Origin: Siphonodentalium dalli
Taxonomy: Eukaryota; Mollusca; Scaphopoda; Gadilida; Siphonodentaliidae
DNA length: 64,000 nucleotides
Assembly: GCA_032622095.1 (NCBI GenBank)
Contig: CP136064.1
Coordinates: 145,407,954 to 145,471,953, forward strand
Direction: 5' to 3'
Within the stretch, counting starts at the first letter, position 1. Every line of letters begins with the position of its first letter. The notes beneath the pieces are model-generated. The model saw nothing but the letters and a program-made list of their open reading frames with translations. It was not told the origin of the DNA and did no database searches. Of the stretch, positions 1 to 31,129 are shown piece by piece. The translations under genes were made by a program, and so were the position numbers.

Positions 1-379
1 ATTTAGGTTTAGAGGGTGTCAGGTTTGACATTTCCGTTGGAAATGTTTGAGGTACCATTTGGAAAGTTCAACTGGGAGGGGGGTTGCAAAGTAGTATTTC
101 GAGAACATTTGACTTTGGTCTGGTTCAAGGTACATACATTTGGAAATATCAAGGTATCTACATGTACTAGTAGCCACCTCCCCGGTTATAAGGTATAAGA
201 ACACATTGGCTACATGGATGCGACTAGAGATCTCAATTGTGGGGGGGTCTCCAACGATAACTTACTATTATTATCACAGCTCTCAGTTAGTGGCCAAGAC
301 ATAAATGCAAAAATAATGAAAAGCACCATCAACTATAGTATAAAATTGCACAAAACCTGTTATTTATCAACATTTTGTT
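1..379. other. Gene-free stretch
   Basis: AT-rich DNA with no recognisable coding signal, repeat terminus or RNA gene. Short opposing ORFs of about 60 codons overlap one another, which is expected by chance in this composition. Confidence 0.5.
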
Positions 380-587
380 CAACGAAATTTTACCGGTTTG
401 TCAAATATCTGACACAAAAAGCCACTTGATTTTAGAGTTATCCATCTTTGCCTGCAATTTGGTCAATGAAATTCTTCTCGATGACTCTATTTTGCCGGTT
501 TGTCAAATATCTGACACAAAAAGCCACTTGATTTTAGAGTTATCCATCTTTGCCCGCAATTTAGTCAATGAAATTCTTCTCGTTGAC
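380..587. repeat. Two-unit 102-bp tandem duplication
   Basis: The phrase CCGGTTTGTCAAATATCTGA starts at 393 and again at 495, a period of 102 bp, and the two units are almost identical. Because 102 is a multiple of three, the duplication stays open in one frame and yields a duplicated short peptide. I see no other coding evidence. Confidence 0.85.
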
Positions 588-3530
588 TGTCTATTGGGCC
601 ACTATAATTAAAATAATAGATTTATAACATCGATATCTGATCACTCTGAGCTGTGGTGGGTGGGTTCCTCGACTCGAATCAAATATTTTTTACCCCCGAA
701 GTCAAGGAAATAGTAATTTGCGACCGTTAATTCGGATTGAGTACCTTTAAGATCTAACAGCAACCATATCTAAACCCCACTACAATCTGGGACTAATATA
801 TGTTATACATGTATTAGTCCCAGCTACAATCAGTGAACCTGATGAATAATTTTAACAGCATCTGAAAATGAAAGAAACATCCCACACCTTGTCTACGATA
901 TAATGAAAGCCATAATTGTAAATCAATCAGCTCTTCGTGTACCGGTATACATGTATATGTACACATATTGGACCCACATGAATTGCTATATTCTCCATAT
1001 TAATTTAAAACGAGCGCACCACTTTAACAAACTCATTATTGAGTATTATATCAATAGCGATGTGTTTGTTAAAGTGGCAAGGTCATTTTAAATTTATACT
1101 CCTTTTAACATCAATAGGCCTACACAATCATTCGTTGCATAACTTTCATTAAATTTTCCTAGTACTGAATATAAACAGTACTGGTACAATAACACTAGCA
1201 GTACTGGAACCGACCATACTGTAGGTGTCTGGCCTGTTTATTACCTTTTTAATTTGTTCTGATACATCAGGTTATTATAATAAGATGATAGTTCATTCAG
1301 ACAACATCCTCTAAGTTGCCTAATAATAGAGACAAACTAATAATAGTGATGGTGGGATTTTTTAGCTACATGTAAAATTAATAATAGTAACCACAGCAAT
1401 TTCACTCTATGTCTCTTTAAAAGTGATCTGATCATGGGAAGTGTTCTCCAAATATAATAACAGTGTTGACACTATCATATTATTGACACTATTATTGCAC
1501 ATGAGAGTACTGTTACTAGTACATGTAGATGCTAATATGAGTAAGTCATTATCAAGTCTGGTTCTTCTTCAATTCAACTATCATAGTGATATTCAACTAC
1601 ATGTATTATATCTTAATTGTACTACCATACACAATGTATACTGGTACGGTATATACGTAAACTCCAGGTTTTCTCTATTTTTACTAAAACTTCATGGAAT
1701 CATCTCACTTCGTAATGCACAACCACTTAAAATGTACATGTATATAACACTATAATTTTAACAGAGCAAATGAGAAGGCATCATATTCCAATATAAAAAG
1801 AATTCTACAGCTTATTACAGGAGACCTGTTTATTTCATAATGGCAGAAGTACATGTGCATGTACCGGTATGCCATTTGAATGACATTATAAATAACTTCT
1901 CACCAAGATGATTTCAAAATTCTAACTACTAGTACAAGTAAATCAGTTAAATAATCAAAAATGCCAGCACCGATATATATACTGTACTTAGTACATGTAG
2001 TAAGTAGGTACCGTACATGAGATATTTTCACCACTTCATAATAGTTGAATATATACGGTACATGTACCGGTACAATGGAATTCAAGTTGTGTCAGACCTG
2101 TTGTTTGGCATAAACAATGTACCAGTAAGTGACTTTTGTGATCACTGTTAGTCATTGATTTTGATAACATAAGTTCATGATTTTTACAAAATAATTTTAA
2201 TGAATCAAAACCATGTGCAGCCGCATGTGTAACATGTAACTGTCTTTGTCCATTAGTCATTATCCAAGTCTGGTTTAGTCTTGATCTAATGATCAAAGGC
2301 GGAATGTTACTAGTATGTACCGGTAACTTATGATCATGATCCGGGAGTCTGGTGAATTATAATCCATTTCACAGCATTGTCCATGTCTGCATGTTTCATG
2401 ACATGTTTGGTAAACATCCTCACTCGATTCACTGACACTGGTGAGTGGTGCCATTGCCATTCTGATTCTCCAATCTCCATATCATGTTCTACCCTTCACA
2501 AGTTCACACACATGTAGCTACTGTACTTCTAATCAGTCTAATGTACTATGCAGAATGATAGAATCTGAATGAACATTCAATGAACTTTTACGGCAGCAGC
2601 GTTGACTGCATTTCAGCGTTGACTGCATTTCAGCATTGAAGGGCTGAGGAGTCCAGAATAGAACTATAATCATCATATTTTGCAATAATCATTACATTCA
2701 CATTGTTTGCATTCTTCCATTGCCTTGGGTCAATCAGTGCTATTCACTTATTCGAGTCAATGTCCATGATAATAACAGTTGAATACGGCATAGCCTGACC
2801 TGCCACACTCAGTGACTCACACACCGTGTCTGTGACCAGTCCAGTGTTAGTTCAGTCATGAACGTAGTGCGTATCCTTCTACGCTGGAAGCAGCAATCTG
2901 CGAAAGCGGTCATGTTGACCAACTTGAACTTCACCAAGTCCAGTGTGCGATATTCGGATTGGTCCCGTCACTTCACATGATATTTTCTGATAATTAAGCG
3001 GTATTTCTAACATCCAAACGGGTTAAAACAGTCTATATCTAATCCGTTGTGTACACGAAAGAATGAGATACACATTTTCTGCGAATAATGAACGAAACAA
3101 GCAGATATGACAGATGAAAAAACTATTTATTTTTAACACATAAAAATTCCACACCGGAAGTGCAGGGTGGCGAATACGGACTGTGAAATAACGTACTAAC
3201 TCTGGGAACAATTTATCCCCAATTTCATGCACAAGAATGTTTAAACATTATCATAACATATTCGACTTGTTTTTAATTTGTTTTCATGAAAAGGAATGAT
3301 AAAAGGCACAATAAACATATCTAGAACGACAAATAAATCCAAATTAGCCATTTCCCCGTAAAATTTCGGTCAGGCAAGCGAGGTACAAAAATGTATGAAT
3401 CTGAGTACGAAAGTCAGAGTGTTCCTCTATCGTATTGCAATAATCGCCAACCTATTATAATATAAAAAAGCTATGCAGGGGGATAACTCGGAAAAAAAAT
3501 TATTGTTGCGGAAAAAGTCTCATTGTGAGA
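588..3530. other. Gene-free region rich in ACCGGT and TACATGTA palindromes
   Basis: About 3 kb without a supportable gene. The motifs ACCGGTA, TACATGTA and ACTAGT recur, especially at 930-2340. A short direct duplication of an ~18-bp phrase lies near 2600-2635. ORFs reach at most about 100 codons, overlap on both strands and match no family I recognise. It could be intergenic or intronic. Confidence 0.4.
787..823. repeat. 37-bp hairpin
   Basis: CTGGGACTAATA at 787 is followed, after a 13-nt spacer, by its exact reverse complement TATTAGTCCCAG ending at 823. It could be a relic of a small inverted-repeat element. Nothing around it suggests an intrinsic terminator or an RNA gene. Confidence 0.7.
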
Positions 3531-3539
3531 CTTTAATGT

Positions 3540-3850
3540 TAAAAAAGTGACGGTGTTATGCAAAGGATTTGGTTTTGGTTAGGCTTGTATGTATGACTAG
3601 GCTCGTCGAAAGGGTTATGGTAAGGGTCCAAGGTATGGATATGGTTTGCAGGAGGGCAATGACTATGGTCAGAGGTCATGGTATTTATTGGGTTAGAGTT
3701 AAGTGCTGTGGATAGGGCTATAAAAATGGTTATGATTATCGATTGGCTACGATTAAGGTTGTGCTTATCGAAATATTAGGGTCATGGAGTGGTTTATGGG
3801 TAAGGATTGGATAGGGGTGGGTAGAGTGTTAAATTAAGGATGGGGACCGG
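3540..3850. repeat. G/T-skewed degenerate simple repeat
   Basis: The plus strand is strongly G/T-rich and cytosine-poor, with irregular GGTTAGG, GGTTATGG and GGGTAAGG phrases. It resembles a decayed short-period repeat. It is not a clean telomeric TTAGGG array: there is no constant period. Confidence 0.5.
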
Positions 3851-4095
3851 GAATTTATATGGAAGTATCAAAATTCTGCAGGCCAGAATTTTAACCTCTA
3901 GTTATACTTCCATGGTGTAACCAAGGAAGTATATTGTTTTTCTACTGTGGCCGTTTTCTGTTTAATTGGAAATACTCAGAAACTAATGGGAGGAGGACCG
4001 CGAAATTTCTAGGGAATGTAGGCATTTAAGGGATACGCAAAAAAAAGATATCGCTTCATCGCAGATTGAAATTTAAAAAAAAAAAATTTCTCTCT

Positions 4096-4432
4096 ATTAT
4101 TATTATTATTAAAATACTCCGCACTTTTACAATAACTATATTTCGGAAAGTTTAAGCAGTAGCAAACTAAATGTTGGTATGTATGTTAGGGCTAACGAGT
4201 TCTAACTAATCGTCATATAACGAATATTGCCCTCGCTTGAGTCGCTTCCCTCCTGTAGTTATCTCCCTTTATCTGAAAAAAATGCCATTTTACTATCTCG
4301 GAAATTATGAGGAGCAGGGCATCCAAATTTGGACCATATGCACACCTCGATATGCCATACTGGTCACGGGCATCAAAACTTGTGTCCGCGTTTTCCCCGC
4401 GGAGTTACCGCCCACAGATAGGCACACACCAT
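4096..4432 (+). repeat. Dispersed repeat, copy A
   Basis: This stretch begins with (ATT)n followed by AAAATACTCC and runs to a phrase ending ATAGGCACAC. It is closely repeated in the same orientation at 7050-7372. It contains GTTATCTCCCTTTATCTG, a phrase related to other places here (9113, 59205) and characteristic of molluscan interspersed repeats. Both copies encode the same short peptide in one frame, but that follows from DNA similarity and is not taken as a gene. Confidence 0.75.
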
Positions 4433-4829
4433 ACACCAGGATGAATAAACTGAGGTTTTTTTTGATTTTTTTTATAATTCCAGCGGGGGGGGGGGGGTGG
4501 GGTCGGAAAAAAAATACAGGATACAAGGACCGGGTGGGTGGGTGTCCCCGAGCCCGGTATGCAGATTTTTTTCTGATGTCATGCATTTTTTTTCCAAAAT
4601 CATTTCTAAGACAAATTACAGCTTCAAAATGAATTGAAACAACCAGATTCATATAGTAGTGCATGCTATAGCCTTATACAAGTGAGGGGGGGGCTATATA
4701 TTTAATTTTTTTGTCCACAATTTCTGCCTTTAACAGTTGAAACCATGTGGTGGGTCCGGTTGTAATGAAAAAAAATCCATTCTCATAGTTTATCATGGCT
4801 TTTAACTTATTATACATAGAGGATACCTG
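4433..4829. other. Gene-free stretch with poly-G tract
   Basis: Contains a run of more than ten G at about 4484-4496 and homopolymer A and T runs. No coding or terminus signal seen. Confidence 0.4.
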
Positions 4830-4958
4830 CGTGTTTTGAGTGAATACCGGAAGTATCTCATGAGATAATGGAATCATCACGAGTTAGGCCACGAGTGATG
4901 ATTCCAGTATCTCACTGTGACCACGAATGAGGTAATTCTGGTATTCACTCAAAACACG
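4830..4958. mobile_element. Imperfect hairpin, MITE-like
   Basis: CGTGTTTTGAGTGAATACC at 4830 is mirrored by GGTATTCACTCAAAACACG ending at 4958. The arms continue inward with mismatches through GTATCTCA and GGAATCATCAC. The total is about 129 bp with a short central loop. This is the shape of a palindromic MITE or solo hairpin element. I could not define a TSD. Confidence 0.6.
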
Positions 4959-5455
4959 AAGGTTTTCTTTTTGTTATATGCGCTATTTACTAAAATAGAT
5001 CTTGGAATTAATTCAAAATCGAACTGATTCCGATTTTATATAAAAATGGATAAATACCAACACCCCGTCCGATCTATGCACAGACATTCCATGTATAGCA
5101 CTCTACACTGCCAATTTGTTAAGTGTTTCGACAATTTTGTTACACCATGTTTACGAACTGGTGATTTGCGCAATAATAACGTGTTGTTCACTGATTGGAG
5201 CATTAAAAGGCTCCAGATTCAATCTCAGCATCTTAAAGTGGGTATTTTACCTTTATAACCATAAATATTTGGGTTTTTAAAAGTTTTGTCACTGGTTTTG
5301 TTGGCATATTTTTCAGCCATGTGCTTTGTTTGTTTATTTTTTGTGGGTGTACTTGATCAGCGTTTTCTCAGTTCCGGTGCAGACACAATGAGATACCCTT
5401 ACCCTGCCAACAACACATTATTTAGTAGAATTTACAAGATTTTCATCTATTTTGA
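4959..5455. other. Gene-free stretch
   Basis: No recognisable coding sequence, terminus or RNA gene. Short ORFs of about 65-70 codons here match nothing I recognise. Confidence 0.35.
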
Positions 5456-5575
5456 GGGTGGGTGTCCCAGACCTGGGTAGAAAAAACTTACGGTCCCGGG
5501 TGGGTGTCCCAGACATGGGTGGAAAAAACTTACATTCCCGGGGTGGTGGGTCCCCAAAACTGAAAAACACAAAAT
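5456..5575. repeat. ~42-bp tandem repeat, about 2.5 units
   Basis: GGGTGGGTGTCCCAGAC starts at 5456 and 5498, and a degenerate third unit begins near 5540. Each unit carries a run of A followed by CTTAC. A related GGGTGGGTGTCC phrase occurs at about 4533, so the motif belongs to a dispersed repeat. Confidence 0.7.
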
Positions 5576-5799
5576 TTCCACCTTGTATCCGTGATTGTTT
5601 TCCTGACCCCCCCCCCCCTGATTCCAGCGCTATTATTTTTTTATGGCATATTCCAAATGGGAAGAGTGATTCGGACCCGAGTATACCACTTAAAAGTTTT
5701 TTCTCCCAGGCATTTCCGCTATACTGGGAACGGAAAAATTGCACCTACTTTTCCCTAAGTTTGACCACTATACTCTGAAAGCAGCTTGCCAAACGGAGT

Positions 5800-7372: not shown

Positions 7373-8214
7373 TAATTGATTGTACTCAGATGTCTTCCCT
7401 TCACATTCCTCTTGCTTATTGTCAGTTCTGAGCCAAAACGAAAACTGGACAGGGTCGGTCTAATATTTTTACATTGGGGTGGGGGGGGGGGGGGGGCAAA
7501 TTTTACGATTTTGTGCTTTCGTTACGATACTCGTCTGTGTAAGTATATGGCTTAACTGAGTAAAGCTGATCATATACCACGAAACTTTTTAAAAATCTGA
7601 ATAGAAATGCGAGAGTTGTGGGCCCTAAAAATGACAAATTTTGGGGCAATCGGCTGGTGACCATATCTCCTTTAAAACGGACAAACTTTGGAGATAGCCA
7701 CATACTTCTAAACGTCAATAATGAATAGTTCTAGGTGTGTGACAAATTTGGTGAGTGTCGGTTCAGTATTGTGGGTCCGGATAGGGTTGGTGCGTGGTAC
7801 CATTTTATGTTTCGTCCCCGAATTAGATGAAACTTGGAATATAACATCTACCGTTTGATCACGAAACAGAAAACAGATCGTAAATCCGTTTGAAAATGGT
7901 GGAGGTTTTGGACGTTAAAGATTGAAATTGGCCCAATATGTTTGTCAATAACCAAAATGCTATTCGTCTCTTAATCAGATGAGATTTATAACATATGATC
8001 TAGGGGAGTTGCAGATCACAGAACTGAAAACAATTTTAAAATCCATTCGAAAATAACGAAGTTACGGGCTCTCAAAGTTCGCATTGTGTGCCAGGTTGAC
8101 AATTTCCTAATCTCGTCACCTAATTTCGAGTCAGGGGTGGGTTCAATTACAAACACGTCAGATAAAAATACACATGCCAGGAAACATATAATCACAATAT
8201 TTAACATTTTTGTT
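7373..8214. other. Gene-free repeat-derived stretch with poly-G
   Basis: Contains a G-rich run at about 7480-7496 and degenerate units with ATTCGAAAATAACGAAGTTAC-like phrases resembling those at 9480-9530. It probably derives from the same tandem family as 5800-6480. No coding signal. Confidence 0.4.
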
Positions 8215-25563: not shown

Positions 25564-27073
25564 TCTACTATATATTTTGGGACTTCTGTTTGTCTTTAGC
25601 TATGGCCGGGAAAACAGCCGGACGGATTTCGACGAAATTTGATACCTAGGGATACTTTTGTCCAGGGAGTGTTTTAGACGTGTCAAATCGTGACCTGGAC
25701 CTGACCTTGACCTTCAAAATGGTCAATTCAAGGTCAAATCTGGTAAAACTGGCGGATTTCGACGAAATTTTATACATAGGACACTTTTGTCCGGGGAGTA
25801 TTTTGGACGGGTCAAATCGTGACACCGACCTGACCTTGACCTTCAAAATGGTCAATTAAAGGTCAAATCTGGTAAAACTGGCGGATTTCGACGAAATTTG
25901 ATACCTAGGAGTACTTTTGTCAGGGGAGTGTTTGGACGGGTCAAATCGTGCCCGACCTGACATTGACCTTTAAAGTGGTCAATTCAAGGTCAAATCGCGC
26001 CTTTCGTCGTACGGATTTCGACGGGTACTTTTGTCGGGTACTTTTGTGCGGGGAGTGCTTTGGACGGGTAAAATTAGACCGGCCCCCAGATGAGGGTATT
26101 GTCACACGAAAGGGTAGAAATTTTGACACTATCTCCAATTATCCTTGCCCCATGGGGGTTCCAAAACACTGAGGTATCCAGGGCGGAGCAGGTGGAAAAT
26201 ATATTTTTTTGACCTTTTTGGTGTTTTTGACCTGCAAATTTCAGTATAATCAGGAAAACCAATAAAATAAGACAAATGTTGAATAAAATATACTTGAATA
26301 TCAGATACTTATTCTATCTGGGTGGCTTAACATTTATGATGTGCAAAAAGTTATATTTAATATCCAACAATTTTTGTGAAAAATTCACGAAAATGCTAAA
26401 TAAATGCATAAATTGCAGTGCTTTTTCAAAAAAGTTTTCCAGAAGATTTCCTATAAAATTTCCATTTTTTGGTATAAAGCTCTCATTGGTGCATCATAAT
26501 TTTCAGCATTATATACCTGATTTATTATATCAACATCACAATGATATCCAACAAGCCGAGATATTTCCAAAAACTTAACCCACCCCCCTAAAACTGATTT
26601 TCTATCTGAAAATACCTATTAAGTCAGAATAGCCCGTTTTCAGTCCTTTTTTTTAAACAATTCAGAGTCTTATCATATATCATGGAATTATTATGTATCT
26701 GAGGAGGTCTATGTTATGGTAGAGTCTATTTTGTTTAAATATTTGATTATTTTTTTTCGGGTAAATTGGCTAAAATTTTGATTATTTTTAAGTGAAAAAT
26801 GTTTGAAAAATTCCCATGACTTTGTCAGCTTAATGGATACAGCTGCACAACATGCACCACAATAAGCATAAATTATTTCCCAATATCAGACATGAAATGC
26901 TATAATCATGTACCAGACCAGAATTAAAAAATAAAGTAAAACTTATCCCTACCCCAAGATAGTGTTTGCAATGCTTTCAATTGTATGCTATAGTATGCTA
27001 TACTAAACTCGAAAGGTCGTTCATACAAGTTGATAGAATTCATATCATAACTTGAAATAGTTCTGCCCACGGA

Positions 27074-27665
27074 TTATGTAATCTCATCTTCACTGTCACT
27101 GTCAATTTCATCAAATGTGATGGTATCAGTCAATAGAATTTCTGTGCAACATCTTACGGGAAAGAATGGTTCAAACAACTCAGGCTGCCTATCGGCCGTC
27201 CATCTATGAAGTGCTACACCGGGAGTGGTTGATTTGGCAATGGTTGCAAGTCTCCACTGTTTTGCTATCATGTTAGTTCGTTTTGAGTGTAGAATTCAAG
27301 ATTCCTCACATGGTGGAAGTGCAGAAAGATCAACTACCTTTTGCTGATTCTCGAACTTCTGCTGGAACTTTACCCACCTAGCTTAATTCACTTTTCTCGA
27401 ATTTGGACCATACATGTATATGGCACATGTTAACTCCTTGATTGTATTAAGCGTGTCACTGTCCAAATCCCAATTCGTTCCTAAATAAGCCATATAGCTT
27501 GATGGTCTTTCCAGAAACTTCCAGAAGTGTTCTTTCCCTTTTCGGAACAACGATGAAAGGTAATTATTATCTGTGAAGGAATGGAACCCAACAACTGCAT
27601 TCTTCTGTATTTTTGGCTGCCAAAATGTGGAAATGGTAGATATTGACCCAGCGTGTCCCGCAATC
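27074..27665 (-). pseudogene. Decayed coding region in the left arm (uncharacterised invertebrate repeat-protein family)
   Basis: One minus-strand frame runs about 590 nt with only two in-frame stops. In order it shows GFHSFTDNN, then RKGKEHFWKF, then KELTCAIY, then KFQQKFENQQKVVDL, LPPCEES, MIAKQWRLA and a region rich in Asp and Glu at the end. From memory, this order resembles a widespread uncharacterised protein family in cnidarian, mollusc and insect genomes with an FHxxTGCDxTS, GKGK, LPP, RANxxAxxW and HGW pattern, often multicopy and repeat-associated. Here the GCD of the first motif is not conserved. Function is unknown. The same sequence, more damaged, lies in the opposite arm at 29488-29930. 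Confidence 0.5.
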
Positions 27666-27839
27666 GCTTAGAAGTTGTGGTTGATGTATACAATTGGCTA
27701 TTCTGCCTTCTATACATTGAACACTAACATGTCTGATGCACCTTAGTTAATTTTTCTATTGTCACCACTGACATTACCGGAGTTATTGTATTTTCATGAA
27801 TGATGCGAATAGCTGTACATGGTTAGCTATATGGCCATG
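27608..27839. other. Left junction between arm and minisatellite
   Basis: Sequence unique to the left side; the reading frame of the pseudogene continues a little into it before being lost. No counterpart was found next to the right arm. Confidence 0.4.
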
Positions 27840-29290
27840 AATGGGGTGGCCATGGTGAGATGTATAGCTATGCAAGGAGTGAGTGTATGGTCATGTGTGA
27901 GGTGAATAGGTATACAGGGAGTGACTGTATGGTTGTTTGGTTATGACTACCCAGTACAGGTGTACACAATGTGGCTCAATGGACATTGTTGTGGTTTATG
28001 TAAATAACGAGAGTACATGTACCTACATGGTCATATGTGTTTTTATGTATATATGGAGTGACTGTATGGTCATGGGTGGGATGTACAGGTGTACCTTGTG
28101 TGGCTGTATTGTCACAGGTAGGTGTACATGTATTGTCTGTATGATCATGGTGGGGTGAATGGATCAATAGATGTGCATCTGTGTGTAATGCGTATAGGTG
28201 TACATGGAATGGCAGTAGTCATAATGTGTATATGATATATGCTGAATGGCCATTGACGAGCGTGTGGATGGTCATGTGTGGAGATATATGTATATATCGA
28301 GTGGCTATATGGCTATTGACATGGCAAATATGTATAGTGAGTGACTCTATGGCCAATTGCAATAGTGAGGTGAATATGTTTTCAAGGAGTGACTGTATGG
28401 CCAATGGTGATGTGAACAGGTATACAAGCAGTGACTGTATGATCATGAATGTGGTGAATAGGTATACAGGGAGTGACTATATGGTCATGGATCAGGTGTA
28501 GGAGTATACCTGGTGTGGCTGTATGGTCATGTGTAGGGTATACGCGTATACACAAGAATGGCTGTATGGTTATGGAGAGGTATGTGTATAAAGTGAGTGG
28601 CTATATCACCATTAGTGAGGTGCATATGTTTGCTTGGAGTGATTCTATGGTCATGGTTGGGGGTATATGTATATCTTGCGTGGCTTTTTGCCATGGGTTT
28701 GGTGAACATGTATACAGCGAGTGATGTATGACCAATGGTGAGGTGAATATGTATACAATGATTGACTGTATGATCATGAATGTGTTGAATAGGTACACAG
28801 GGGGTGGCTATATGGTCATGAGTCAGTCAGGTGTATGAGTATACCTAGTGTGCCTGCATGGGCATGTGTGGAGTGTACAGGTATACACAAGTGTTGATAT
28901 ATATGGTCATGGGTGAGGGGTACGTATATAAAGCAAGTGGCTATATGGCCAATGATGAGATGCATATGTATACATGGAGTGACTCTATGGTCATAGCTGG
29001 GGTGTATATGTTTATCTTGAATGGCTATTTTGTCCATGGCGAATAGGTATACGGTGAATGACCATATGGTCAATGGTGAGATGAATAGGTATACAAGGAT
29101 TGACTTATGATCAGGAAAGTGGGGAATAGGTATACAGGGAATGACTATATGGTCATGGGTCATATGTATGTGTATAGAGTGAGTGACTATCTTGACATTT
29201 GTATGGTGTTTATGTGTATATATGGAGTGACTGTATGTTACTGGGTTGGTTGTACATGTGTACCTTGGGTTGCTATTGCTTTCCACAATA
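27840..29290. repeat. 42-bp minisatellite with ~334-bp higher-order period
   Basis: About 34 diverged units follow the pattern GTGACTGTATGGTCATG, a G-rich stretch, and GGTATACA. A distinctive unit with GACTGTATGATCATGAATGT occurs at about 28434 and 28765 and, more diverged, near 29102. The blocks between have the same order of unit variants, so about eight units form a higher-order repeat of 331-337 bp. As 42 is divisible by three, frames stay open on both strands; I do not regard these as genes. Confidence 0.85.
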
Positions 29291-29487
29291 ACTCAACGAT
29301 ATATTAATCGATAGAGAGGTCATGTCAGAGAGTTCTCCATCTTGATGGCGTTTATGCACGATGGAGGGAACGTTAAATGATTTCCCCCTGATAATAGTTA
29401 ATCAATTTTGATGCTAATGGGCAGGTGATTCAAGTCAGTGATATCGAGATTTCAAATATACAGAAGAATGCACTTATTGGGTTCCAT

Positions 29488-29930
29488 TCCTTCACATTCC
29501 TTCGCTGGAAAGACGATCAAAATATATGGAAGTCATGGTTTATTTAGGAACGAATTGGGTTTTGGACAGTGACACGCTTACTACATCGAGGAGTTAGCAT
29601 GTGCCTTATGTTCAACGTTCGAGAAAAGTGAATCAAGCTAGGCGGATAATGTTCCAGCAGAAGTTCGAGAATCAGTAGAAAGTACTTGACCTTTCTGCAC
29701 TTCCACCAAGTGAGGAATCTTTAATTCTACACTAAAAACGAGCCAACATGATAGCAAAACAGTGGAGACTTGCAACCGTTGCCAAATCAACCACTCCCGG
29801 TGTAGCACTTCATGGATGGACGGCTGATAGGCAGCCTGAGTTGTAAGATGTTGCACAGAAATTCTATTGACTGTTACCATCACATTTGATGAAATTGACA
29901 GTGACAGTGAAGATGAGATTGCATAATCCG
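29488..29930 (+). pseudogene. Decayed coding region in the right arm
   Basis: Plus-strand counterpart of 27074-27665. It retains MFQQKFENQ, DLSALPPSEESLILH, KRANMIAKQWRLA, GVALHGWTADRQPEL and the acidic tail. It has lost about 75 bp containing the RKGK motif and carries stops and frame changes. The HGW and RAN motifs are better preserved here than on the left, so the two arms have decayed independently. It reads outward, toward the right terminus. Function unknown. Confidence 0.5.
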
Positions 29931-31129
29931 TGGGCAGAACTATTGCAATTTATGATATGAATTCTATCAACTAGTATAAACGACCTTTCGAGGTTAGTAT
30001 AGCATAAAATTGAAAGCATTGAGAACACTATCTTGGGGTAGGGTTAAGTTTTACTTTATTTCTTAATTCTGGTCTGGTACATGATTATAGCATTTCATGT
30101 CTGATATTGGGAAAGAATTTATGCTCATTGTGGTGCATGTTGTGCAGCTGTATCCGTAAAACTGACAAAGTCATGGGAATTTTTCAGAAATGTTTCACTT
30201 AAAAATAATCAAATTTTAGCTAATTTACCCCCAAAAAATCAAAATTTTAAAAACAAAAATAGACTCTACCATAACATAGACCTCCTCAGATACATAATAA
30301 TTCCATGATATATGATAAGACTCTGAATTGGTTAATAAAATGGAACGAAAACGGGCTATTCTGACTTGAAAGGTATTTTCAGACAGAAAATAGGTTTTAG
30401 GGGGGGGGGGTGGGTTAAGTATTTTGAAATATCTCGGCTTGTTTGAAATAATTGCTGGTGAAGTTGATATTAATAAATCAGGTATATAATGCTGAAAATT
30501 TTGATGAACCACTGAGAGCTTTATACCAAAAAATTAAAATTTTATAGGAAATATTCTGGAAAACTTTTTTGAAAAAGCACTGCATTTTATGCGGTTTTTT
30601 TTGCATTTTCGTGAATTTTTCACAAAAGTTTTTGGATAATATAACTTTTTGCACATCATAAATGTTAAGCAACCCAGATAGAATAAGTATATGATATTCA
30701 AGTATATTTTATTTAACATTTGTCTTATTTTATTGGTTTTCCTGATTATACTGAATTTGCAGGTCAAAAACACCAAAAAGGTCAAAAAATTATATTTTCC
30801 TCCTGCTCCGCCCTGGATACCTCAGTGTTTTGGAACCCCCATGGGGCAAGGATAATTGGAGATAACGTCAAAATTTCTACCCTTTCGTGTGACACTACCC
30901 TCATCTGGGGGCCGGTCTAAATCGTGACCCGACCTGACCTTGACCTTCAAATGGTCAATTCAATGTCAAATCGCGCCTTTCGCCGGAAATCAGAGGGGAA
31001 ACAGCCCGGACGAAGTCGGGCCCACCAGCTAGTATATATATATTTATAACACAATTGGCCCCTAAATTCGGCCTGATGATTTAGCAAGACACACGTTTAT
31101 TACCGGCACGCGCAGTGACACAAGAGCTT

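Follow-up and report, generated by a model that had tools for sequence, protein, structure and literature searches.

Palindromic elements apparently built from the 3′ side of a probable AcademX transposon form a dispersed non-autonomous family in Siphonodentalium dalli

Introduction

Foldback- and Tetris-type elements of Drosophila have very long inverted arms that contain tandem repeats. In Galileo, terminal repeats have been extended by the inverted recruitment of neighbouring element DNA (PMC4168063). In D. willistoni, where Galileo duplications are 7 or 8 bp, the last part of the transposase ORF lies in both repeats, with a length of 69 bp, or of more than 500 bp in copy 147; such ORF recruitment was called, in 2014, so far unique to Galileo (PMC4168063). 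In the mechanism proposed for Galileo, repair that uses the other repeat as template gives a TIR1-F1-F1-TIR2 arrangement (PMC3573991). A further inverted structure is maize Mu killer, a MuDR derivative in which part of the transposase gene is duplicated in inverted orientation and one terminal repeat is present twice (PMC3440606).

Here we analyse a palindromic element in a 64,000-nucleotide stretch of S. dalli DNA (contig CP136064.1; the window). We consider it likely that the element belongs to an AcademX-like non-autonomous family, in whose founder an inverted copy of the 3′ side replaced the other end, and that this founder was later amplified as one piece.

Results

The window element extends from 26075 to 30919 (4,845 bp), with TAG...CTA ends and AAT on both flanks (26072–26074, supported also by the joined-flank match described below, and 30920–30922). 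The inverted arms of about 1.5 kb that had been predicted were recovered as a gapped match of 1,463 columns at 88.9% identity, plus a 44-bp outlier at 93%, giving arms of 1.4–1.5 kb. The arms are asymmetric, which corrects the earlier description: the left-to-right match stops at 27615, while in the right arm parent-like sequence begins at about 29420. The left, long-side arm (26075–27615, plus strand) consists of a parent-type terminal repeat and the 3′ end of the parent gene. The right, short-side arm (29420–30919, minus strand) has a parent-like gene 3′ end and terminal repeat with internal deletions and frameshifts. Both arms carry decayed copies of the same C-terminal fragment of a parent transposase-type protein, and both read outward: the left copy (27083–27646, minus strand) has two stops and is 73% identical to the ORF of a full-length relative, L001, while the right copy (about 29520–29828, plus strand) was located by tblastn with the protein of a second relative, L021. 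Between the arms lie the left junction and spacer (27616–27795, plus strand) and a minisatellite core of a degenerate 42-bp repeat (about 27781–29291, plus strand), which is also present in sister copies. A search at E 1e-5 found no match for the core in L001, and its source was not found. The original prediction is thus borne out as regards the termini and their AAT flanks, the arms, the outward coding remnants and the 42-bp centre.

The element interrupts a repeat whose left part (25623–26071, plus strand) has a 129-bp tandem unit and whose right part (30923–31032, plus strand) has a GC hairpin and a CTAG end. We take this host repeat to be Helitron-like, the hairpin and CTAG end having been read by eye. 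When the flanks were joined with one AAT, a single alignment spanning the joint was obtained at all 40 places scored out of 4,730 first-look candidates in the genome, with 91–94% identity and length differences of at most 3 bases. The interrupted repeat is therefore restored by removing the element and one AAT, as had been claimed for this site.

The window element is a member of a dispersed non-autonomous family. Both ends are kept in 14 of the 18 other copies fetched, and perfect 3-bp target-site duplications flank 12 of the 15 two-ended copies, the window included; L003, L011 and L035 are without one. The original prediction had named two findings that would count against it, copies with non-coinciding ends and arms occurring alone. 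Mostly these checks did not overturn it: the ends coincide in those 14 copies. Even so, the left terminus of L036 is altered, and at L010, L013, L037 and L039 an unpaired arm was seen within the sequence fetched. L005 was considered as a separate palindrome and rejected, since it is of the window type and differs by one insertion and one deletion. L011 is a second-generation palindrome.

When 26 arm rows were placed in a tree, all 10 arms of the long side fell into one clade (support 100/99), and the short-side arms largely repeated their branching, indicating that the palindrome is older than its spread. Strict monophyly does not hold for the short-side arms, as that of L006 stands apart, and the long arm of L003 is on a long branch. 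The tree, together with a common junction (unbroken from 27590 to at least 27781 at 40 of 40 scored places, including the window), led us to reject separate formation of each window-type copy; the window-type palindrome had one origin and was amplified as a whole. Variable sites among the 10 long-side arms fall almost evenly on codon positions 1, 2 and 3 (28, 27 and 26), and one TAA is common to nine of them, the tenth being gapped there. With no codon-position bias and a common stop, we rejected the idea that the arm gene has kept a coding function; the fragment was dead by the time the palindrome spread.

It had been proposed that no transposase family explains the element. However, the same genome has full-length relatives whose ends are of this type, which carry 3-bp duplications and in which the gene is still in position. 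One of them (L001+L015; 7,855 bp) has the terminal sequence seen in the window, a CAT duplication and terminal repeats of about 877 bp; its L001 part contains a stop-free ORF of 436 aa, the C-terminus of which is the arm protein. The other, L021, is 7,275 bp long, with a TAA duplication, 807-bp terminal repeats that are 98.6% identical, and ORFs of 906 and 577 aa. Perfect 3-bp duplications were present in all four other elements with both ends determined (L001/L015, L017, L018 and L021). No intact parent belonging to the same family as the window element was found; the left-arm part homologous to the roughly 0.88-kb terminal inverted repeat of L001+L015 (26075–26954, plus strand) is only 81–85% identical to it.

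Because the arm fragment adjoins the terminal repeat in the full-length relative, in the same order, we read the 'gene relic' as the 3′ end of a gene that belonged to the parent transposon itself. This bears on the idea of a foldback element that captured an unrelated piece of a host gene (Pack-type capture), which later came to lie in both arms. The window taken alone is compatible with such a capture, but a piece that is the transposon's own gene, in the same order, makes it extremely improbable, and host-gene capture was rejected. Of the original proposal that the element had swallowed and duplicated part of a gene, the duplication stands, but the gene is the transposon's own. The other proposal, a decayed palindrome derived from an element that encoded the protein, was right; what exists is a multiplied family, not a lone relic.

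The nuclease of AcademX is of the XPG type. PIF/Harbinger elements target a 3-bp TWA, and Helitrons have neither terminal inverted repeats nor a duplication; membership of the first was rejected on the duplications found here, among which AAT, TAT, ATA, CGT, GTC and CAT occur, and that of the second on the inverted ends and 3-bp duplication of the window element. The duplications of 3 bp also do not fit Mutator and foldback MULEs, with 4 to 10 bp (PMC10045372), or the P superfamily with Galileo, with 7 or 8 bp. For AcademX the same paper gives 3- or 4-bp duplications and an encoded nuclease (PMC10045372). The 3-bp duplications (12 of 15 window-family copies and four other elements), and a long protein with a nuclease-like acidic motif in its C-terminal part, point to AcademX as probably the parent group. 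This motif, ExD...DxD...GNDY, is invariant or nearly so in an alignment of 11 ORFs (A1) and resembles the acidic motif of the host's own XPG and FEN1 exons. Homology to XPG/FEN1 was not detected by Pfam or PDB profile searches, nor by an hhalign profile comparison with the host XPG/FEN1 exons, one side of which was 2 short exons only.

A parent from another or an undescribed superfamily that makes 3-bp duplications is rather unlikely, given the 3- or 4-bp duplications and the nuclease described for AcademX (PMC10045372) and the resemblance of the acidic motif to that of the host XPG and FEN1 exons. In its favour, the ORFs scanned gave no match at curated cut-offs, the only PHROGs match had an E value of 0.15, and a very weak DUF6589 match of one N-terminal ORF (E 0.12) does not indicate a superfamily. 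Searches of the arm and parent protein against Pfam, PHROGs, PDB sequences and viral contigs gave no identification. A D-alanyl-D-alanine carboxypeptidase match of the decayed fragment (E 0.0014) was discarded, as it was absent with the longer ORF. Length is a weak criterion: Academ elements are described as long in a bivalve survey (PMC10294476), and the relatives found here, at 7,855 and 7,275 bp, are long but above the library mean of 5,565 bp given there.

Palindromes of like plan, each made from the 3′ half, were found in two further families; the copies are L017 (with a junction common to L016), L018, L019 and L020. The two L018 arms pair with each other in the tree (95/94), and the same holds for L020 (96/92); the window type differs in this, so that L018 and L020 would have formed separately. 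Together, the junctions and the trees of arms favour at least four separate palindrome origins (window type, L017 type, L018 and L020) in three families. Later gene conversion between the arms is an alternative source of the pairing in L018 and L020. The tree gave no firm placement for L019, and its junction could be of the L018 type after a central deletion, so it was not counted separately. Tandem copies also occur: one case is L010, and on C4 the L017 family seems to form a multimer.

Discussion

How might such palindromes form? The parent would have had terminal inverted repeats of about 0.8–0.9 kb, 3-bp duplications and a gene ending just inside one repeat. In the founder, the other end (terminal repeat and 5′ half of the gene) would have been swapped for the inverted side carrying the gene's 3′ end, leaving two outward copies of terminal repeat plus gene 3′ end, with leftover or foreign DNA, here the minisatellite, between them. 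Less certainly, the swap may have come about when one terminal repeat was repaired, or underwent gene conversion, with the other as template, the copied tract extending into the gene; repair of this kind, as proposed for Galileo, is the formation model we prefer. The founder was then amplified as one piece, and a transposase recognising its unchanged ends would have mobilised it in trans.

Alternatively, two copies could have inserted head to head with loss of the inner parts, or a chromosomal inverted duplication could have been mobilised later. The tandem copies noted above (L010 and the C4 multimer) and the varied junctions, which deletions could also produce, are compatible with this. However, a terminal-repeat query finds nothing beyond the two outer ends in the window element, in L017 and in L018, and in L016/L017 the DNA between the arms consists of the remaining gene sequence, all in a single orientation (residues 176–554 of the L021 protein), as replacement of one half predicts. 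We therefore regard a head-to-head or inverted-duplication origin as unlikely.

Replacement of one end by the inverted 3′ side resembles Galileo, in that part of the element's own ORF is inverted in both terminal repeats. It differs in the 3-bp duplications, against 7 or 8 bp in Galileo, and in the length of the doubled gene part: about 0.5 kb in copies of the window type, the junction of which was seen at 40 scored places, about 1.0 kb in L017 and 1.7 kb in L018. What sets the element apart from Foldback/Tetris-type elements is that full-length relatives and the gene of the parent could be identified. ORF-end recruitment is now found in a group other than Galileo, probably AcademX, where it founded a successful non-autonomous family, and it appears recurrent, with separate junctions in one genome. 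The literature searched contained no palindromic 3′-end derivatives of Academ and no paper pairing 'Academ' with 'foldback'. Since simple-centred palindromes exist (L016–L018), the birth of foldback elements becomes testable.

A bolder reading is that the palindromes are a built-in, one-sided by-product, the 5′ half being repeatedly replaced by the inverted 3′ half, and that they are mobile, promoterless, Mu-killer-shaped parasites of their parents, perhaps restraining them. This is suggested by the at least four first-generation palindromes, all of the 3′ type, and by the opposite-strand neighbour pairs in the two C-part searches, whose C-termini point outward in 11 of 11 cases; we hold it to be distinctly unlikely as a whole. 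C-part queries reveal well only 3′-type palindromes, and the 5′ type is tested by the N-part search, where none was seen among 97 scored matches (of 952 candidates). Such one-sidedness would imply that the machinery treats the two ends differently, perhaps via the nuclease-like domain, and is a prediction that can be checked in other Academ-rich genomes, for example those of bivalves.

By analogy with maize Mu killer, the palindromes might naturally repress the parent through hairpin RNA, which we judge very unlikely. Mu killer silences MuDR, whereas here many dispersed copies exist and it is the 3′ side that is duplicated; with the gene's 3′ side at both ends, no promoter of their own would be evident. 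In its coding part, the window left arm shares only 12 21-mers with L001. On the other side, the anatomy is the one described for Mu killer (PMC3440606), and the arms share 1,763 (L017) and 1,149 (L018) 21-mers.

Structure of the window element

The window element spans 4,845 bp (26075–30919), ends in TAG...CTA and is flanked on either side by AAT. Its inverted arms match each other at 88.9% identity in a 1,463-column alignment, and an outlying 44-bp stretch matches at 93%. When the arm regions were aligned with each other, identity was 88.7% (1,379 matches, 176 mismatches) and 185 columns held gaps; just 5 mismatches fell in the outer 200 columns. A degenerate 42-bp repeat occupies the centre (about 27781–29291). 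A terminal-repeat query matched the window element at its two outer ends and nowhere further in; the same held for L017 and L018, palindromes of other families in the same transposon group.

The element interrupts a Helitron-like host repeat with a tandem 129-bp unit (25623–26071 and 30923–31032). This host repeat had thousands of candidate places in the genome (4,730), of which 40 were scored. When the window flanks were joined with a single AAT, each scored place was matched by one alignment spanning the joint, at 91–94% identity and with length differences of at most 3 bases.

A dispersed family

In the genome assembly (2.23 Gb, 9 contigs), the terminal 166 bp of the window element had 898 candidates; the 40 scored, window included, were all at least 98% identical. 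A further 18 loci of the family were fetched. L002–L009 and L011–L014 were picked from terminal-repeat and protein matches, many because they hinted at a pair of arms; L035 and L036 came from the neighbour pairs, and L037–L040 were taken for holding a window-type junction. Both ends lay at the same terminal base in 14 of the 18, with the first base changed in L011. L013, L037 and L039 had one end alone within the fetched stretch, and the left terminus of L036 was altered. Perfect 3-bp duplications flanked 12 of the 15 both-ended copies, window counted (AAT, TAT, ATA, TAA, TAT, AAT, TAT, TAA, ATA, CGT, GTC and CAT), the other three being L003, L011 and L035. Tandem locus L010, picked alongside L002–L014, was left out of this set; at positions 78–5701 a 2.07-kb unit of truncated single arm and Helitron-like sequence is tandemly repeated at 99.6% identity, a recent satellite-like amplification.

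Full-length relatives and formation

The arm protein had 2,773 genome candidates, of which 150 were scored. One of these matches sits inside a 436-aa stop-free ORF at L001, which with the adjoining L015 forms a 7,855-bp element having the same terminal sequence as the window element and a CAT duplication. Its terminal repeats are about 877 bp long, at 85.7% identity, and its gene terminates just inside the left repeat. The left arm of the window element keeps this order, matching first the left repeat (81%) and then the last part of the gene (82%). A second full-length relative is L021 (7,275 bp, TAA duplication); its terminal repeats, 807 bp each, are 98.6% identical, and its ORFs encode 906 and 577 aa. 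The ends of L017, L018 and L021 were set by eye at TAG...CTA; the BLAST arm alignments overran by a few bases. The searches turned up no intact parent for the family to which the window element belongs.

Two 968-aa stop-free frames elsewhere in the genome (C2:214213337 and C5:163252631) had near-equal scores, suggesting that some L021-family members were active recently. Within the transposase gene region of L001 (6545–7150) there was a weak match, under the cut-off (E 0.26), to zf-RVT, a reverse-transcriptase zinc-binding domain; this may be what remains of a LINE within the element.

In L016–L020, palindromes of other families, more of the gene lies on one side than on the other, and the middle of L016 and L017 is merely the remaining part of the gene. 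Because of these features and the absence of an inner terminal repeat from the three elements queried, we propose that one element end would be rebuilt from the other across the long terminal repeats, and that copying would run past the terminal repeat into the gene, leaving the gene 3′ end doubled and inverted. That a non-coding unit has spread, with its ends intact and duplications beside it, suggests that window-type elements were moved in trans.

An acidic pattern, ExD...DxD...GNDY, is common to 11 aligned ORFs of the transposon group and looks like the acidic motif in exons of XPG and FEN1 from the host genome. The nuclease of AcademX is of XPG type. Pfam, PHROGs, PDB-sequence and hhalign searches gave no support for homology of the group ORFs to XPG or FEN1. 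Passages of a later paper by the AcademH author (PMC10045372) give AcademX 3- or 4-bp duplications, tied to its nuclease, unlike the 9–10 bp of AcademH, and in excerpts of a bivalve survey (PMC10294476) Academ is reported as abundant in bivalves and long. Given the acidic pattern and the duplication length, the group probably merits the name AcademX-like.

A single founder

The left junction and spacer (27590 to at least 27781) were unbroken in all 40 scored genome places, window among them. For an arm tree, sides were labelled by the spacer in 10 copies, window included. The 10 long-side arms grouped as a single clade (100/99), whose branching was largely mirrored among the short-side arms (e.g. 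window with L007; L002 with L004 and L009). Exceptions were the short arm of L006, which stood apart, and a long branch for the long arm of L003. The continuous junction and the mirrored branching show that the family came from one founder, whose two arms had already diverged before it spread. Variable sites in the long-side arms numbered 28, 27 and 26 at the three positions of the codon, and a TAA at one codon is common to nine of the ten, with a gap there in the tenth; the gene fragment was dead by the time of spread.

Palindromes in other families

L017 and L018 have 2.3-kb arms (96.9% and 95.9% respectively), each with a TAA duplication, and L016, L019 and L020 are further palindromes of the window plan. 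In L017 and L016 alike, the junction brings residue 176 of the L021 protein next to residue 554, and these two therefore share one origin. L018, L019 and L020 are 92–96% identical to one another, yet have three different junctions, which by themselves could also reflect central deletions of one founder. In a 9-row tree of the arm gene part, containing their arms and three other members, the L018 arms paired together (95/94), as did those of L020 (96/92), the reverse of the window-family pattern; the L019 arms had no resolved grouping. Unless later gene conversion homogenised the arms, this pairing indicates that L018 and L020 formed separately. Counted together with the window type and the L017 type, they bring the first-generation events supported by the data to a minimum of four, spread over three families. 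L011, with 2.1-kb arms at 97–98.5% that take in part of the minisatellite, is a second-generation palindrome derived from a window-type element, and L035 resembles it.

In two genome searches with the C-terminal part of the transposase-type protein, 11 of 13 neighbour pairs within 8 kb lay on opposite strands, all 11 with C-termini outward; in a search with the N-terminal part, none of 8 pairs did. These searches scored part of the candidates, so the pair counts are no census.

In C4:275857052–275879333, one left end is followed by four consecutive right-end repeats of the L017 family, spaced at about 5.58 kb, which looks like a head-to-tail multimer of the element. In L017 itself the terminal repeats on the left (972) and right (6730) begin differently, TAGGATGGGC versus TAGTCTAGGC, and genome copies divide likewise (query 1–169 versus 8–169); the two ends of this family may not be equivalent.

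Comparison with known systems

The kind of element is already known from Galileo, for which passages of PMC3573991 propose the same formation model as here, TIR1-F1-F1-TIR2. In Drosophila willistoni both Galileo repeats hold the final ORF part, termed 'so far, a unique trait' in an excerpt of PMC4168063. What is new is the occurrence in an AcademX-like group, the success as a family and the recurrence: a literature search of titles, abstract openings and passages, mainly from non-subscription papers, found neither Academ and foldback together nor such palindromes in Academ. Mu killer of maize, as described in part of PMC3440606, has the same plan; a silencing role for the palindromes described here is putative.
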